Both the position numbers and the translations under genes were made by a program. A stretch of DNA of 64,000 nucleotides, taken from Arsukibacterium perlucidum DSM 18276 (GTDB taxonomy: Bacteria; Pseudomonadota; Gammaproteobacteria; Enterobacterales; Alteromonadaceae). Below the pieces are notes generated by a model. The model saw only the letters and a list, made by a program, of their open reading frames with translations, ran no database searches and was not told where the DNA came from. Where the stretch lies: contig NZ_KB907702.1 of assembly GCF_000382165.1 (NCBI RefSeq), positions 62,001 to 126,000 of the forward strand. The letters are read 5' to 3'. Below, piece by piece: positions 35,604 through 46,129 of this stretch; the stretch's first letter is position 1, and each line of letters opens with the position of its first letter.

Positions 35604-36272
35604 TTAAAATTCTGCTGGGTAACTTAAATCTATCTGCTCAGCTGTTAGCGGATGCTTAAAGCTGATGCTACAAGCGTGCAACAGCAGGCGTTCTGCTTTG
35701 GCAATAACAGCCTGATTGCCGTATAAAGTGTCGCCCAGAATTGGATGGCCAATTGCTTGCAGATGCAACCTCAGCTGATGTGAGCGCCCTGTCACCGGCG
35801 TTAATAACACACGACTTTGCTGGTGGGCGTCATCTCGTTTTAGTACCTGATAATAAGTCAGGGACGGTTTACCACTGTCGCAAATTTTATAAAGTGGCCG
35901 GTTTGCCGGATCCGCCGTAATCGGCAGATTAATGTCACCCTGCTCATTTGCAAGCAGGCCTGCCACCACGGCCTGATACTGTTTATTGATAGTGCGGGCC
36001 TGAAACTGCTTACTCAGCTCAGAGAGGGCTCTTTTGGTCAGCGGCAACAATACAATGCCCGAGGTGTCATAATCCAGGCGGTGGACTACCGTTGCCCCCG
36101 GCCACTCCCTCTGCACCCGGCTGATCAGGCAGTCTTTATTTGCCGGATGCCGGCCGGGGACTGTCAGTAGTTTGGCTGGCTTACTGACCACCAGCAGTTG
36201 TTCGTCCTGGTACAGGATGTCAAAAGGCTGGTCGGTTGCCGGCAGTACTGCCAGTTCAGTTATATCTGCCAT
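35604..36272 (-). CDS. RluA-family pseudouridine synthase (first of a divergent pair)
   Basis: The 222-residue enzyme has the RluA catalytic motif VVHRLDYDTSGIVLL with the nucleophile Asp in HRLDYDTSG, plus the RNA-binding loop GRSHQLRLHLQAIGHPILGD. It isomerises uridine in rRNA or tRNA; the exact target cannot be read from sequence. I use the ATG at 36272 (GGGTG 8 nt upstream); a GTG five codons earlier is less likely. It is divergent from a second RluA homologue, only 129 nt away. Confidence 0.88.
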   Translation of the reverse strand: MADITELAVLPATDQPFDILYQDEQLLVVSKPAKLLTVPGRHPANKDCLISRVQREWPGATVVHRLDYDTSGIVLLPLTKRALSELSKQFQARTINKQYQAVVAGLLANEQGDINLPITADPANRPLYKICDSGKPSLTYYQVLKRDDAHQQSRVLLTPVTGRSHQLRLHLQAIGHPILGDTLYGNQAVIAKAERLLLHACSISFKHPLTAEQIDLSYPAEF

Positions 36273-36401
36273 TAAAATTACACCCACTATTTGAAATTTC
36301 AGAATTCGGTATCCGGATAGCGGCCATTATGCCTGATAAGCAGTTTGTCTGCAGGGCAAAATCCGTTATGCTGCAGGCCTGATTTTTGCTAATACTGCGC
36401 T

Positions 36402-37109
36402 ATGGTCAATACATTCTGCTACATGCCCCCCACAGAGCCGTGGCTTGATATTTTATATCAGGACAAAGACATTATTGTCCTGAACAAACCCAGTGGCTTA
36501 TTGACCAACCCCGGACGCGATCCAGAACTGGCAGACAGTTTATTCAGCCGGGTTAAAGCGGATTTTGAGCTGGCGCAACTGGTGCACCGGCTGGATTTAA
36601 GCACATCAGGCGTAGTTGTTATCGCGCTGAGGCGCAAAGCAGAACGTGAATTGAAACGTCAGTTTGCTGAGCGACTGGTGAAAAAGCGTTATCTGGCGGT
36701 AGTCGCCGGCAAGCCGGCCCCGGCAAGCGGCAGCATCGACTGGCCACTGACGGTCGATGCAGAACAGGCTCCGCGCCAAAAGGTCTGCCTGCAGACAGGT
36801 AAAGCCGCTGTCACTCATTATCGCGTATTACAGCAACTGGCTGCTGCCGCTCTGGTAGAGCTATTGCCGGTTACCGGCCGCTCACATCAATTACGGGTAC
36901 ATATGCTGACATTAGGCCACCCCATTCTAGGTGATGCATTCTACGCCCCATCCCCGGTACTAGTTGCGGCTCCCCGCTTGCTTCTTCACGCCGCCAGCTT
37001 ACAGATACAACACCCCTACTCTGGTAAAACGCTTGAATTTACAGCAGATACTGACTTTGTAACAGCCAGTGGCAAGCTTAACTGGCCAGAGCCACAATTT
37101 AATTTTTAA
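36402..37109 (+). CDS. RluA-family pseudouridine synthase (second of a divergent pair)
   Basis: The 235-residue enzyme shows LVHRLDLSTSGVVVIAL with its catalytic Asp, and GRSHQLRVHMLTLGHPILGD. It has the same short, S4-less layout as its divergent neighbour at 35604 but differs clearly in sequence, so the two are old paralogues with separate targets, not a recent duplication. The start is uncertain: the ATG at 36402 lacks a strong ribosome binding site, and an ATG at 36423 would also keep the fold. Likely substrate: 23S rRNA or tRNA. Confidence 0.87.
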   Translation: MVNTFCYMPPTEPWLDILYQDKDIIVLNKPSGLLTNPGRDPELADSLFSRVKADFELAQLVHRLDLSTSGVVVIALRRKAERELKRQFAERLVKKRYLAVVAGKPAPASGSIDWPLTVDAEQAPRQKVCLQTGKAAVTHYRVLQQLAAAALVELLPVTGRSHQLRVHMLTLGHPILGDAFYAPSPVLVAAPRLLLHAASLQIQHPYSGKTLEFTADTDFVTASGKLNWPEPQFNF

Positions 37110-41370: not shown

Positions 41371-42030
41371 ATGTTGGAAACTACCGTGCTATCAGGGCAT
41401 CATGATGCTTTATCCAAGCAGAAGCGAAATAGCCAGCTTATGACTATCAGTACTGATAACGAGCTACGAACCGGTCAATGGGAAGACGCCCTGACGCTGG
41501 TTGCGATAAACCAGGACAAAGCAGCATATGCTGAATTGTTCAAGTATTTTGCACCAAGACTGCGGGCCTTCGGCATTAAAATGTTCGGCAATGAACAGCA
41601 AGCGATGGAGATGGTACAGGACGCAATGCTGAACGTCTGGCGTAAAGCCAGGCTGTTTGATGCCAGCCGTGGTTGCGCTTCAACCTGGATTTTCACCATA
41701 GCCCGAAACGTTCGCTTTGATATGTTACGCAAAAAACAAAGCCGCAAAGACGATATCAGTGCTGACGATTTATGGTTTGATGGCGATTATCCGGAGCAGG
41801 AAAGCAACAGCTCTGATAATTGGGATACCATGTTGATGAGTGAAAAACTGGCTCCTCATTTTGACGCCCTGCCACCGGCGCAACGTATGGTTATGCAAAA
41901 AGTTTACCTTGAAGAAAAATCCCATCAGGAAGTTTCTGACGAATTAGCAATACCCTTAGGCACAGTGAAATCCCGGATAAGACTGGCTCTGGACAGATTG
42001 AGAGGCGCATTAGATGACACACGCAGTTAA
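41371..42030 (+). CDS. ECF sigma factor of the RpoE/ChrR-partner type
   Basis: The 219-residue protein has sigma region 2 (YAELFKYFAPRLRAFGIKMF, then QDAMLNVWRKARLFD) and region 4 (LPPAQRMVMQKVYLEEKSHQ, GTVKSRIRLALDRLR). It overlaps by 17 nt a gene for a ChrR-type anti-sigma factor, which marks it as an ECF11-like sigma factor. In Rhodobacter and Shewanella relatives these answer singlet oxygen or organic peroxide stress. The start is uncertain; an internal ATG at 41440 would shorten it to 196 residues, nearer the family norm. Confidence 0.9.
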   Translation: MLETTVLSGHHDALSKQKRNSQLMTISTDNELRTGQWEDALTLVAINQDKAAYAELFKYFAPRLRAFGIKMFGNEQQAMEMVQDAMLNVWRKARLFDASRGCASTWIFTIARNVRFDMLRKKQSRKDDISADDLWFDGDYPEQESNSSDNWDTMLMSEKLAPHFDALPPAQRMVMQKVYLEEKSHQEVSDELAIPLGTVKSRIRLALDRLRGALDDTRS

Positions 42031-42703
42031 ATTTCACCCAGGTTTAATGTTACTGGAACAATATGTTGAAGGGTCACTATCTGCTGACGTTGCACTAGCG
42101 GTTTCAGCTCACATTGATTTATGCCCGCATTGCCAGCATTTGAGTAAAGATATTACTAATGATCAGGCAGCAGAGCTAACAGAGCAGCAAGTTAGTAGTC
42201 GGGACGCTGAGCAAGAGTGGCAGAGTATGTTGGATTTTATTACCAGCCAGCCAGCATTGTCGCCGTCGCGTGCAGGGCTTGCCAGCACTTCGCCTCAGGT
42301 ATCCAGTGTTACTGTCAATGGCAGAACCTTCGAGATCCCCAGAGCGCTGGCAAGGTTGGCAGAAAAGCAAAACAAGTGGCTGCAGCTGGGCGGTATTGCA
42401 ACAGCTAAGCTACCAACAGCTGATAAGCAGCATGTTTCGTTGCTTTATATCGATAAAGGAACCGAGGTACCAAATCATACCCACCTTGGTTTGGAAATGA
42501 CATTAGTACTGGCAGGCAAAATAGTCGATGAGAATGGCGAGTATGGTGTAGGTGATTTGCTGATTAATTCACCGGACGACACCCACACACCCAGAACACT
42601 GGCAGACGAAGATTGTTTGTGTTTATCAGTGCTAAGCGCACCGTTAAAGTTTAATAAAGGTTTGACGCGCTTATTAAATCCGTTACAGCAATTTTTCTAC
42701 TGA
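42014..42703 (+). CDS. ChrR-family zinc anti-sigma factor with cupin domain
   Basis: The 229-residue protein has the zinc-binding N-terminal anti-sigma part (FHPG, then HIDLCPHC with His33, Cys37, Cys40) and a C-terminal cupin with its metal motif (NHTHLGLEMTLVLAG ... DDTHTP). In the family, damage by singlet oxygen or similar agents frees the sigma factor. The gene overlaps the sigma gene by 17 nt, the usual translational link. It holds the sigma factor inactive in the cytoplasm. A terminator follows it. Confidence 0.92.
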   Translation: MTHAVKFHPGLMLLEQYVEGSLSADVALAVSAHIDLCPHCQHLSKDITNDQAAELTEQQVSSRDAEQEWQSMLDFITSQPALSPSRAGLASTSPQVSSVTVNGRTFEIPRALARLAEKQNKWLQLGGIATAKLPTADKQHVSLLYIDKGTEVPNHTHLGLEMTLVLAGKIVDENGEYGVGDLLINSPDDTHTPRTLADEDCLCLSVLSAPLKFNKGLTRLLNPLQQFFY

Positions 42704-42786: not shown

Positions 42787-45063
42787 TTAAACCAGCATCG
42801 CCATGCCACCATTTAAGTTATACACTGTTGCAAAGCCAAACCGGCGCAGCACCTTGCATGCCAGCAAACTACGATTGCCACTGCGACATACCAGCAGTAA
42901 CGGCCTCCCGGGTGTCAACTGCCCGCTAATTAACGCATCGCATAGCTTCGATAAAGGCACAGCCAGCACTTCTGTTACGGCAGGCAGATGCTGTTGCAAA
43001 GGCCCGGCTGTTTGTTCATGTGGCTCCCGCACATCAACCACCTGCAGCGCTGGTTGTTGCTGCAATACGCCGGCAAGCTCAGTTTTATCCAGCAAACGAC
43101 TGGCATCCGTTACGGCAACCTCGACCAGGCCGCAATAATAATGGCTGGCTTGTTGCAATAAGGCAGTCTGGGCGTTTAATTGCTGCTGCCAGTTTGCTGC
43201 AGCTTGCCCCGCCAGTACTTTATCGAATAATTCACTCTCCTGCCGCGCCAGCTGCAATGTAGTGGCAAAACGCTGGGCGTAATCGTGACTGGATAACAGT
43301 AAAGTATCTGGCTCGACTTGTTCTGCCAGCTTGCGAATACTGTGTTGTAACACCGTAGCATTGCCATCGGCTAAATCAGTGCGGCCAATGCCTCCTGGTA
43401 AAATAACATCTCCGACAAAAGCCGCTATCGCTTTTTGCTGCCGGCGCAGAATAATGCTGATGGCATGGGCACAATGACCGGGCGTAGCCAGCCGGCTCAA
43501 CTGTAAATTTGCCAGGTTAAGCTGCTCTGTGCCAGTTGGCCAGCCAAATTCATCACAATCATCCTGGTTAAAGTTTAACGCCTGACGCAGCAATAGCGCT
43601 GCGCTTTGTTGCTCTGGCTGTTGCTCTGGATGCTGATGCGTTTCCAGAATGGCCAACAACTGTAACTGCCGCCCCTGAACGATATTAATAATCCGGTTTA
43701 CCAGCGCCGCAACCGGATCTATAACCAATGCCTGGCTACTGGCCGCATCAATTAAAAGGTAACTGCAGCTATCTTCATGCTTCAGTTGCACCAAACCATT
43801 GGCGTGGATCTCCAGAGTTGGCGTTGCATCTGTTACCACCAGACAATGTTTATTTACCACTGATTTTAATGCCCGGATAGCGTTACAGGCATCTGCACAT
43901 TCCATCGCCGTCATCGCCGGACCAAATGACAAACGAATAGCACCCTGGCTGCGCCAGGCAGCTAAGCCCATCGCATCCAGTACAAAACTGCTGGGTACTT
44001 TTGAGCTACAGGCGGAGCCGGAACTTATCCGGATCCCCGCGGCGTCAAACAAATCCATAATGTCTTTACTGTAAAAACCCGGCACTGAAAAATTCACCGT
44101 GGTTGGCACGATATAAGGCTGCTCACTGTTCAGCAGCAGCTGCGGAAATACGTAGCGTAGTGCCGCAACTAAATCGGCCCGGTAATCCCACAGCGTTTGC
44201 TCTGGCTGAAATATTTTACTATCAGTACGTTGCAGCTCGGCCAGTACAGCCCCCAGCGCGGCAATACCCGGTAAATTCTCGGTGCCGGAGCGCAAGCCGC
44301 CCTCCTGACCGCCACCTGTAATAAACGGCTGATAAGGCGCACTGGCTCTGACATACAAAAAGCCTATACCTTTGGGTGCATAAAGTTTATGGCCACTAAA
44401 AGGCGCATAATCGATAGTGGTATCGGCCAGTTTAAGCGACATTTTACCCAGTGCCTGCACGCAATCCACTAACCAATATACAGCTGGATTTGCAGCACGA
44501 ATGCAGTTCTCAAGTTCAGTTAATTGCTGTTTAATGCCGGTTTCATTGTTAGCGGCCATGGTACAAATAAGCCCGGCAGCCGGAGCATGTTGGCGAATAA
44601 ATGCAAAATCCAACTGACCATTCTGATCAACCGGAATAGCTTTTATTGTTGCGTTAAGCTGCAACACACTGTTCCAGTGTTTCAAGCTCTCTGGCACTGC
44701 TTTGTGCTCAGTAGCACCGAACAGCAGCAGGGTTGCCGGCCCGCCTTTTCCCTGCTCCCGCAACGCCAGCAAAGCAGATACCACCGAGCTTTGAATACCC
44801 TCAGTGGCACCCGAGGTAAACAAAATACGGCCATCGCCGGCACCGGTAACCCGCCGGGCGAGGCTGCGGGCATGCTCGAGGGTTGCTTTGGCTTTAATGC
44901 CGGTGGTATGGCTGCTACTGGGGTTGCCAAACTGCTGCTGCATACATTGCATTGCCGCCGCCGCCGCGACTGGCAGCACCGGTGTGGTGGCATTATTATC
45001 TAAATAAATATCCAGATAACTAGCTGCAGGTTTGGTTTGGGGGCTTACTGGTGCTTGTTTCAT
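42787..45063 (-). CDS. Three-domain fusion: cysteine desulfurase, metallo-beta-lactamase-like, rhodanese
   Basis: The 758-residue protein combines three sulfur-related domains. Residues 1-405 are an IscS/NifS-like PLP cysteine desulfurase with the PLP lysine in SGHK (Lys226) and the active cysteine in SSGSACSS (Cys352). Residues about 415-645 resemble a persulfide-dioxygenase-type metallo-beta-lactamase domain: THQH (475-478) is present but the D-H of the usual HxHxDH is replaced by E-Q; GH530, D552 and H593 are kept. Residues about 655-758 are a rhodanese with active Cys726 in CRSGNRS. Persulfide made by the first domain could pass to the rhodanese directly. It stands alone, convergent with the ChrR gene. 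Function as a whole is inferred. Confidence 0.88.
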   Translation of the reverse strand: MKQAPVSPQTKPAASYLDIYLDNNATTPVLPVAAAAAMQCMQQQFGNPSSSHTTGIKAKATLEHARSLARRVTGAGDGRILFTSGATEGIQSSVVSALLALREQGKGGPATLLLFGATEHKAVPESLKHWNSVLQLNATIKAIPVDQNGQLDFAFIRQHAPAAGLICTMAANNETGIKQQLTELENCIRAANPAVYWLVDCVQALGKMSLKLADTTIDYAPFSGHKLYAPKGIGFLYVRASAPYQPFITGGGQEGGLRSGTENLPGIAALGAVLAELQRTDSKIFQPEQTLWDYRADLVAALRYVFPQLLLNSEQPYIVPTTVNFSVPGFYSKDIMDLFDAAGIRISSGSACSSKVPSSFVLDAMGLAAWRSQGAIRLSFGPAMTAMECADACNAIRALKSVVNKHCLVVTDATPTLEIHANGLVQLKHEDSCSYLLIDAASSQALVIDPVAALVNRIINIVQGRQLQLLAILETHQHPEQQPEQQSAALLLRQALNFNQDDCDEFGWPTGTEQLNLANLQLSRLATPGHCAHAISIILRRQQKAIAAFVGDVILPGGIGRTDLADGNATVLQHSIRKLAEQVEPDTLLLSSHDYAQRFATTLQLARQESELFDKVLAGQAAANWQQQLNAQTALLQQASHYYCGLVEVAVTDASRLLDKTELAGVLQQQPALQVVDVREPHEQTAGPLQQHLPAVTEVLAVPLSKLCDALISGQLTPGRPLLLVCRSGNRSLLACKVLRRFGFATVYNLNGGMAMLV

Positions 45064-45240: not shown

Positions 45241-45957
45241 TTATTCAATCAGGTCTTTAGGTATATCCGGCCTTAACTCCTGCCAAATCTTACCGCTCTC
45301 AATCCCGTATTTACGCACTGCCATTACCACTTCATCGTGTTTACCAGCTTCAGCATATTGTTTTAGCTGTGCATAGTATTTGCGGGCCAGCTCACGTGCT
45401 GCCGGATGCGAAAAGTAAAAGCGGGCAATTTTGTTATACAAGCCACGAAAACCATTTAAGATCAGGACATATATCCGATTTGATGAATGCAACGCCATTT
45501 CATGATTCAGATTGTAATCAAACTCAGCAAAAGCAGCCGCCGAATCATCCAGCACTTCAGCACCAGTAAATGCGGCTATCACCTCTTGCTGATGCGTTTT
45601 AATAGCACCACGAATATAAATAGCGCTGATATTAGTCCGTGCTGACAGCAAATCATCGACCAGTTTTGGCATTTGGTCTTCGTCCAGCCGGGCCAGCGTT
45701 TCCAGAATATTCAGGCCTGAGGTTTCCCAGTAATTATTCACTTTGGTAGGTTTACCATGCTGAATAGTAAGCCAGCCATCGCGGGCCAGACGCTGCAGTA
45801 CTTCGCGCAAGGTGGTCCGGGTTACACCAATCAATTCAGACAGTTCGCGCTCTGCCGGTAAAATTGATCCAGGCGCAAATTTGCCGTTCCAGATCGAATC
45901 AACTATATACTCTTCTGCAAAACCGGCAGGGCTTTGCGCTTTAATCAGATTGGTCAT
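45241..45957 (-). CDS. fadR: Fatty acid metabolism regulator FadR
   Basis: The 238-residue GntR-family protein starts at the ATG at 45957, matching E. coli FadR (239 residues); a longer frame from 46098 adds about 47 residues that do not fit. The winged-helix includes [20 protein letters not shown] and the all-helical acyl-CoA-binding domain follows. FadR represses beta-oxidation genes and activates unsaturated fatty acid synthesis; long-chain acyl-CoA releases it. fadJ at the end of this window is a likely target. A FadR-like palindrome lies 34 nt upstream. It is divergent from dsbB. Confidence 0.93.
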
Positions 45958-45990
45958 GCCAAAAAATCCGTCAGGGTCATCATACAAGTT

Positions 45991-46007
45991 GACTGATTGT
46001 ACCAGAG
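45991..46007. promoter_or_regulatory. Candidate FadR operator in the fadR-dsbB gap
   Basis: GACTGATTGTACCAGAG resembles the FadR consensus AACTGGTC-N-GACCAGTT in ACTG and ACCAG halves (about 11 of 16 informative positions). It lies 34 nt before the fadR start, fitting self-control. This is a moderate match by eye. Confidence 0.5.
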
Positions 46008-46129
46008 CGCTGCCAGTTAACAAGTCGGCACTTAAAAATAGCCAGACTGAACTAACACAACAATTGTGTAATGTTGATAAATCCCTTAAATTAGCCAATT
46101 AGCTGATTGTTATACCAATAGGAACATCT

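Follow-up and report, generated by a model that had tools for sequence, protein, structure and literature searches.

The window analysed here, a stretch of 64,000 nucleotides from Arsukibacterium perlucidum DSM 18276 (contig NZ_KB907702.1, positions 62,001 to 126,000), carries at positions 42787 to 45063 of the minus strand a gene for a protein of 758 amino acids (aa), in which a cysteine desulfurase, a domain resembling ETHE1-type persulfide dioxygenases (PDOs) and a rhodanese follow one another in a single chain. This protein belongs to a conserved desulfurase–PDO–rhodanese family, widespread among bacteria but little described, for which we propose a role in the breakdown of L-cysteine in air with little release of sulfide, in that persulfide sulfur would be relayed in cis and oxidised; we regard this proposal as evenly poised between right and wrong. 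As judged from its sequence, the 758-residue enzyme itself probably removes sulfur from cysteine and may also oxidise this sulfur within the same chain.

Domain architecture and catalytic residues

The features on which this proposal is built are the following, all on the minus strand.

42787..45063, minus strand: whole gene, desulfurase, PDO-like and rhodanese domains; 758 aa, uninterrupted open reading frame (ORF)
43873..45009, minus strand: cysteine desulfurase domain, residues 19-397 (Aminotran_5 19-388, 4.3e-52; family profile 18-397)
44386..44388, minus strand: Lys226, the pyridoxal phosphate (PLP) lysine; equivalent in 182/182 proteins
44008..44010, minus strand: Cys352, persulfide-forming cysteine; equivalent in 182/182 proteins
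43228..43791, minus strand: ETHE1/PDO-like metallo-beta-lactamase domain, residues 425-612 (sequence, profile and model fold)
43765-43767, minus strand: Cys433, at the N-terminal edge of the PDO-like domain; conserved in 101/101 triad-bearing proteins
43636..43638, minus strand: His476, predicted iron ligand 1, equivalent of A. caldus PDO H57; 103/107 in the first alignment
43606..43629, minus strand: residues 479-486, PEQQPEQQ, replacing xDH of HxHxDH; second-sphere Asp-His gone, four-residue insertion
43474..43476, minus strand: His530, predicted iron ligand 2, equivalent of H113; 103/107 in the first alignment
43408..43410, minus strand: Asp552, predicted iron ligand 3, equivalent of D130; 103/107 in the first alignment
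43132..43134, minus strand: Cys644, matching the essential C224 of A. caldus PDO and C247 of ETHE1 (BpPRF alignment)
42793..43092, minus strand: rhodanese domain, residues 658-757, loop CRSGNR (PF00581 668-754 at 4.3e-08; family profile; fold)
42886..42888, minus strand: Cys726, rhodanese catalytic cysteine; equivalent in 182/182 proteins

A sequence-only reading of this DNA had described one polypeptide with a desulfurase, a metallo-beta-lactamase-like and a rhodanese domain, and this description holds: a Pfam scan of the uninterrupted frame finds Aminotran_5 at residues 19-388 and rhodanese at 668-754, with the middle domain matching Lactamase_B at 20.8 bits, i.e. below the curated cut-off of 22.7. 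The three residues then picked out as catalytic, Lys226 and Cys352 of the desulfurase and Cys726 of the rhodanese, stand where they had been placed, and their equivalents are kept in all 182 family proteins that we classified, the window's included. The desulfurase domain has the PLP lysine, the catalytic cysteine and the aminotransferase class V fold of group I cysteine desulfurases, and its nearest solved chains are NifS and IscS proteins (Z about 40 against A. fulgidus IscS in a fold comparison with the whole model). Since it stays below the equivalog cut-offs for NifS, IscS, SufS and CsdA (the best score being that for NifS, 257.2 against 530.75 bits), it is not filed as NifS or IscS; no NCBIfam model at all reaches its cut-off among the matches listed (25 of 26 matching). 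At the other end of the chain, the rhodanese scores 34 bits against the PF00581 cut-off of 22.2, has the Cys-x-x-Gly-x-Arg loop as CRSGNR and shows the corresponding fold, with structural matches spanning residues 243-349 of a model of the C-terminal half. The nearest named relatives of the whole protein (among the best 80 of 390 stretches) are Arsukibacterium proteins with 79-88% identity. With its middle domain present it differs in layout from the two-domain desulfurase–rhodanese enzyme CD-Rhd, and with a desulfurase at residues 19-397 it differs from PDO–rhodanese fusions (PRF).

A predicted PDO-like iron site in the middle domain

By sequence, the C-terminal half is closest to BpPRF, a PDO–rhodanese fusion, and then to ETHE1-type enzymes. 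The list of matches from a fold search with the whole model was filled by the desulfurase, and residues 410-758 were therefore folded alone, which gave a model with a mean predicted local distance difference test score (pLDDT) of 91.5 and a predicted template modelling score (pTM) of 0.91. Foldseek again places BpPRF at the top (E 3.6e-21), followed by other metallo-beta-lactamase–rhodanese chains, ETHE1 and further PDOs. In a second fold comparison PDO chains reach Z values of 18.5-21 as against 17.4-18.3 for glyoxalase II, the lowest PDO tying with the best glyoxalase II, so that the modelled fold by itself separates the two only weakly.

According to a mutagenesis study (PMC6060420), the iron ligands of the A. 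caldus PDO are H57, H113 and D130; T56, H59, D61, H62, R139, D141, H171 and Y173 belong to a surrounding network, C224 is essential, and the D61A and H62A variants each lack detectable activity. In type III PDOs, the last His of THxHxDH is replaced by Phe or Tyr. Mapped via the BpPRF alignment and motifs rather than via the A. caldus sequence itself, the equivalents in the window protein are T475 for T56, H476 for H57, H478 for H59, H530 for H113 and D552 for D130, and R561, D563, H593, Y595 and C644 for R139, D141, H171, Y173 and C224, respectively; D61 and H62 are lost. The 2-His-1-Asp triad of a mononuclear iron site (His476, His530, Asp552) is thus present by sequence, as are the active-site network and the C-terminal cysteine (Arg561, Asp563, His593, Tyr595, Cys644), and what is missing is the second-sphere Asp-His pair of THxHxDH, where the window reads THQHPEQQPEQQ. 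The sequence-only reading had taken the middle domain to keep only part of its metal ligands. This is correct for the HxHxDH string, in which His476 and His478 are kept and Asp-His is lost, but a lost metal site does not follow from it and was rejected, because residues for all three PDO iron ligands are there. By its sequence the middle domain is nearest to ETHE1-type PDOs, and we describe it as PDO-like.

Distribution and classes of the family

Among the genomes examined, full-length homologues occur in the own genome and in 30/30 genomes of the same genus, and in the same sample in 0/5 genomes from other genera of the taxonomic family and in 3/24 from other families of the order. Across the order, matches at E <= 1e-90 were found in 43/394 genomes, representing 13/114 genera, and 40 of these 43 are nearly full-length; across the phylum, 10/398 genomes have a match at E <= 1e-70, nine of them nearly full-length and one (G1036) extending up to residue 519. 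In another taxonomic family of the same class, f213, 81/245 genomes contain a relative at E <= 1e-50. Such recurrence speaks against a chance fusion. Named matches, among the best 80 of 390 stretches, come from Rheinheimera, Alishewanella, Alkalimonas, Thalassotalea, Roseateles, Mitsuaria, Pelomonas and Variovorax, and Pseudoalteromonas is a further named source. In one annotated record, the family gene is named merely 'aminotransferase class V-fold PLP-dependent enzyme'.

In a first alignment of 107 distinct members, any given iron ligand is conserved in 103 rows and the complete triad in 102; among the five remaining rows, L084 is truncated at the end of a contig. The complete collection of 226 loci yielded 188 distinct proteins, with the window's included, and 182 of these were classified, L144 (an outgroup desulfurase), L174 and L226 being too short and L080, L084 (contig ends) and L207 (no rhodanese match) being left out of the state counts; start codons were chosen mechanically. 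The full motif is present in 74 proteins, the triad without Asp-His in 27, a middle region without the full triad in 73 and no middle region in eight. The triad-less class includes L147, in which only one ligand differs, and L096, whose PDO score is still good although two of its ligands are changed. While the triad is present in the resulting 101 proteins by definition of the class, other PDO positions are conserved along with it: residues matching H59, H171 and D30 occur in 101/101, as does the CG that includes Cys644. In the triad-less proteins, CG is found in 8/73, of which five look by eye like true remnants of the Cys644 site; in the two-domain proteins, a CG precedes the rhodanese in 7/8, but it lies at the end of the desulfurase and is distinct from the Cys644 CG. 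Cys433, a Tyr in BpPRF, is C in 101/101 triad-bearing proteins and in 37/72 triad-less proteins with a profile match.

Graded erosion of the middle domain

A quick desulfurase tree (LG+G4) built from nine outgroup rows and a thinned set of 108 family rows, with warnings for the long rows L142, L231 and L234, and a repeat tree without these three and two more rows, show how these classes are related. The family forms one group against the nine outgroup desulfurases, with a Shimodaira–Hasegawa-like approximate likelihood ratio test (SH-aLRT) value of 100, and all eight two-domain forms fall within a 40-row group without the triad (SH-aLRT 99), whose sister is a set of 11 triad-bearing rows of the Roseateles/Variovorax type (support 88, not starred). 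Outside this main triad-less group branch the triad-less f213 rows L147, L158, L160 and L169, with L096, L140 and L142 in other lineages, and judging from these sequences several losses of the triad are probable. Within f213 the PDO profile score falls from 161 bits to nothing, while desulfurase scores remain at 543-606 in uncut rows; on the same family desulfurase profile, the IscS-like protein of the window genome scores 234. Loss is the simpler direction, because homologous middle remnants lie in between, and on this sequence evidence the two-domain layout in the family arose by loss of the PDO domain, nested among triad-less forms. We claim the nesting alone: the tree counts 4-5 changes for the two-domain form, but separate origins were set aside, as a single clade is not rejected by the approximately unbiased test (p-AU 0.116). 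For the proteins lacking only Asp-His, by contrast, one clade is rejected (p-AU 0.0003) and 4-5 changes are needed, and therefore this pair was lost repeatedly.

The median ratio of middle to desulfurase non-synonymous divergence (dN) is 1.87 for full-motif, 2.17 for Asp-His-less and 3.23 for triad-less proteins (28, 10 and 26 close pairs, respectively, greedily chosen, some with saturated synonymous divergence (dS), and with the full-motif pairs L050/L060 and L055/L072 kept despite odd desulfurase distances). The Asp-His-less group, with its 10 pairs, shows no detectable difference from the full-motif group (p = 0.41), whereas the triad-less group exceeds both the full-motif (p = 8e-5) and the Asp-His-less group (p = 0.019). 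In the window's own clade, dN/dS is 0.08-0.10 for the middle domain versus 0.04-0.06 for the desulfurase (six pairs). By these measures the middle domain of Asp-His-less copies is still constrained for something that requires the triad, although constraint does not establish turnover. Relatives with a normal motif, which the sequence-only reading had named as a sign that this copy is damaged, do exist (74 of the 101 triad-bearing proteins), yet the other tests do not bear out the damage; on sequence grounds, the middle domain of the window copy is altered but is not marked as damaged. The suggestion that the middle domain serves as a scaffold fits the 73 triad-less proteins better than the window protein, in which the triad and most of the residues catalytic in PDOs are retained; a modified persulfide-handling site, the other suggestion of the sequence-only reading, may apply to this copy.

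A divergent regulator and the genomic surroundings

Among the 179 loci with sufficient DNA upstream, a tblastn recheck finds a divergent Lrp-type gene 17-213 bp from the family gene in 87, namely in 15/73 full-motif, 64/72 triad-less and 8/8 two-domain loci, and in 0/26 Asp-His-less loci. These genes belong to what we call Burkholderiales-type loci, i.e. the named Roseateles/Variovorax-like rows and the f213 rows beside them in the tree, the order of f213 being deduced from that position. There (within L092-L225) the head-to-head gene is present in 87/95 loci, comprising 15/18 full-motif (not L098, L109 and L113), 64/69 triad-less (not L147, L149, L158, L160 and L169) and 8/8 two-domain loci. 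Two representatives share 47-48% identity with DecR (CyuR) of E. coli and 34-36% with Lrp. In the presence of cysteine, CyuR/DecR switches on cysteine breakdown (PMC11408624). The DecR/CyuR-like gene therefore points to a role in cysteine catabolism for the Burkholderiales-type branch, which we extend to the window lineage only by inference. A CyuR-type 23-base motif sought in the 87 divergent intergenic regions was discarded as too weak, the best sites having 5-9 mismatches as compared with 6-9 in one shuffle each.

Around the fusion gene itself lie genes for FadR (45241-46098, same strand), DsbB, an azoreductase-like protein and, at 41371-42703 and convergent with the fusion gene, a ChrR-type anti-sigma factor and an ECF sigma factor. 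No isc or suf genes occur among the neighbours examined, in agreement with the sequence-only reading, which had seen no link to them. FadR homologues adjoin the family gene in 20/111 loci and ChrR homologues in 21/111, at a glance in Rheinheimera-like loci; ORF-based neighbour clusters contain many spurious ORFs in loci with high GC content, and there only the rechecked regulator was used. The window genome has at least two further desulfurase-like genes, one of which resembles IscS in sequence, and a separate PDO-like protein of 287 aa with an intact THAHADH motif (G000:C29:27085-27951; L240:1498-2361, minus strand), whose gene adjoins a rhodanese-type ORF starting, by eye, with a likely signal peptide. 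On an 801 kb Pseudoalteromonas plasmid, a gene for a TusA-family sulfur carrier lies two genes upstream of the fusion (L145:4448-4666). Elsewhere in the window, two neighbouring divergent genes at 35604-36287 (minus strand) and 36402-37109 (plus strand) look by eye like genes for RluA-like pseudouridine synthases and, again by eye, resemble each other.

A proposed route from cysteine to thiosulfate

In the route that we propose, PLP on Lys226 would turn cysteine into alanine and leave a persulfide on Cys352, from which the rhodanese cysteine Cys726, a small thiol or both would take over the sulfur. With O2, the mononuclear iron held by His476, His530 and Asp552 would oxidise persulfide to sulfite, and the rhodanese could then couple sulfite with a second persulfide to form thiosulfate. 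Conversion of cysteine to alanine and a cysteine persulfide is the established chemistry of desulfurases, and in PDO–rhodanese fusions thiosulfate is formed by the rhodanese. The first two steps are suggested by the conservation of the catalytic residues and by a characterised two-domain enzyme; the third by the PDO fold, the iron ligands and the constraint on the domain, and it is least sure for the window copy because the second-sphere Asp-His pair is missing; and the fourth by the precedent of the PDO–rhodanese fusions. The sequence-only reading had suggested that the fusion could hand persulfide sulfur from cysteine to an acceptor without releasing it; a relay from cysteine via Cys352 to the rhodanese is supported by the presence of both cysteines in 182/182 proteins and by data on the two-domain enzyme (PMC8931425).

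Several observations weigh against this route. The equivalents of D61 and H62, each essential in the A. caldus PDO, are both missing, and we give oxidation by this particular copy, proposed from its sequence, slightly less than an even chance. The glutathione contact R190 of type I PDOs corresponds by position count to Leu612 in the window protein and to Leu or Val in 90/101 triad-bearing proteins (11 unaligned), and K212 has no clear match in the BpPRF alignment. Because these contacts are not kept, the substrate may be something other than glutathione persulfide, either another thiol or a persulfide carried by a protein. At the D141 position, 16/101 triad-bearing proteins have Asn or Gln, though the window copy has Asp. 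Moreover, with a separate intact-motif PDO-like protein in the window genome, the fusion is not the cell's sole candidate for this reaction. Nor does the regulator extend to this lineage: the divergent pair occurs in 0/26 other Asp-His-less loci, and a search of the window genome for a close relative of DecR gave only two homologues, at 34% identity.

A serious competitor, which we rate clearly below even but well above the others, is that the window's middle domain no longer oxidises persulfide, so that a desulfurase–rhodanese relay would remain, with the middle domain as a scaffold or as a binder of persulfide or iron without turnover. In its favour are the absence of the Asp-His pair, which A. 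caldus PDO cannot do without, the 81/182 proteins in which the triad or the whole middle domain is gone while both sulfur-transfer cysteines are retained, and the Pseudorhodoferax two-domain enzyme, which functions without a PDO (PMC8931425); but the triad and the equivalents of R139, D141, H171, Y173 and C224 are all present in the window protein, and Asp-His-less relatives evolve at a rate that resembles that of full-motif proteins and lies below that of triad-less ones. The fusion could instead be a biosynthetic sulfur donor (for Fe-S clusters, tRNA thiolation or cofactors) that steers persulfide to a partner protein. Such roles are frequent for desulfurases and rhodaneses, and the TusA-family gene two genes upstream on one Pseudoalteromonas plasmid would fit them, whereas the absence of isc and suf from the neighbours examined, the at least two other desulfurase-like genes in the own genome, one IscS-like, the patchy distribution (43/394 genomes of the order, 10/398 of the phylum) and the DecR/CyuR-like gene adjoining the family gene in Burkholderiales-type loci make this improbable. 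Still further down we place a hydrolase of the glyoxalase II kind instead of an oxygenase, which seems very improbable to us. It is true that the hydroxyacylglutathione hydrolase model scores 54.5 bits against 24.9 for Blh (both below their cut-offs of 200.8 and 625, respectively) and that the weakest PDO (Z 18.5) ties with the best glyoxalase II (18.3), but the top matches by sequence and by Foldseek are PDOs or PDO–rhodanese fusions, and both the GRTD motif and Cys644 are characteristic of PDOs. In glyoxalase II, furthermore, the Asp-His pair helps to hold a second metal, and with this pair lost a dinuclear site is unlikely in the window copy.

The proposal of cysteine breakdown with oxidation in cis can be extended to the family as a whole, in a form that we hold tentatively and consider doubtful as a complete statement based on sequences: one chain would break down cysteine aerobically and with little sulfide, giving alanine together with sulfite or thiosulfate, and in the Burkholderiales-type branch it would do so under the control of a cysteine-sensing DecR/CyuR-like regulator; the window lineage would carry out the same chemistry without Asp-His on protein-bound persulfide in cis, and the two-domain layout, perhaps including the biosensor enzyme described below, would be the same enzyme after decay of the dioxygenase.

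Relation to known enzymes and significance

A characterised enzyme of similar layout is CD-Rhd of Pseudorhodoferax sp. Leaf274 (WP_056898193.1), for which one report describes both activities, a very efficient desulfurase and, in a mutant of the rhodanese cysteine, a sixfold lower apparent kcat with KM shifting in step (PMC8931425); a second report describes its engineering into the cysteine biosensor CyReB (PMC12319549). According to these sources, CD-Rhd resembles the window protein in having the catalytic cysteines of a desulfurase and a rhodanese (Cys334 and Cys466) in one chain, and eight two-domain proteins of the same layout fall within the window protein's family; it differs in having no PDO domain and in a cysteine spacing of 132, as against 140-152 in these eight. 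CD-Rhd of Pseudorhodoferax may plausibly belong to the triad-less/two-domain clade, although its spacing falls outside the range in these eight. BpPRF of Burkholderia phytofirmans (5ve3, 5ve4, 5ve5), the best match of the C-terminal half, shares the order of PDO and rhodanese, but it is without a desulfurase, has the full THVHADH motif and is 26-28% identical to this half, and superposition of both domains gives a root-mean-square deviation of about 15 A, the domains being set differently in the model. CstB of S. aureus and Blh/bigR-type proteins are likewise multidomain PDOs with sulfur-transfer domains; the Blh model is far under its cut-off on the window protein (24.9 of 625 bits). To our knowledge, neither CstB nor the Blh-type enzymes have a desulfurase. 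With group I desulfurases of the NifS/IscS kind the family shares the fold, the PLP lysine and the catalytic cysteine, but it stands on its own branch (SH-aLRT 100) and is fused to PDO and rhodanese domains. Desulfurase–rhodanese and PDO–rhodanese fusions are already known; open-access literature searches did not find a desulfurase–PDO–rhodanese fusion described.

Cysteine breakdown often yields sulfide, and sulfide can poison respiration. If our proposal is true, the family would provide a one-chain route for cysteine breakdown that need not release sulfide. The family also represents a graded natural series, from a full PDO via a PDO without Asp-His and a triad-less middle region to no middle region at all, in which the flanking cysteines stay constant, and this series makes it testable which residues a PDO requires and how a two-domain fusion can arise.

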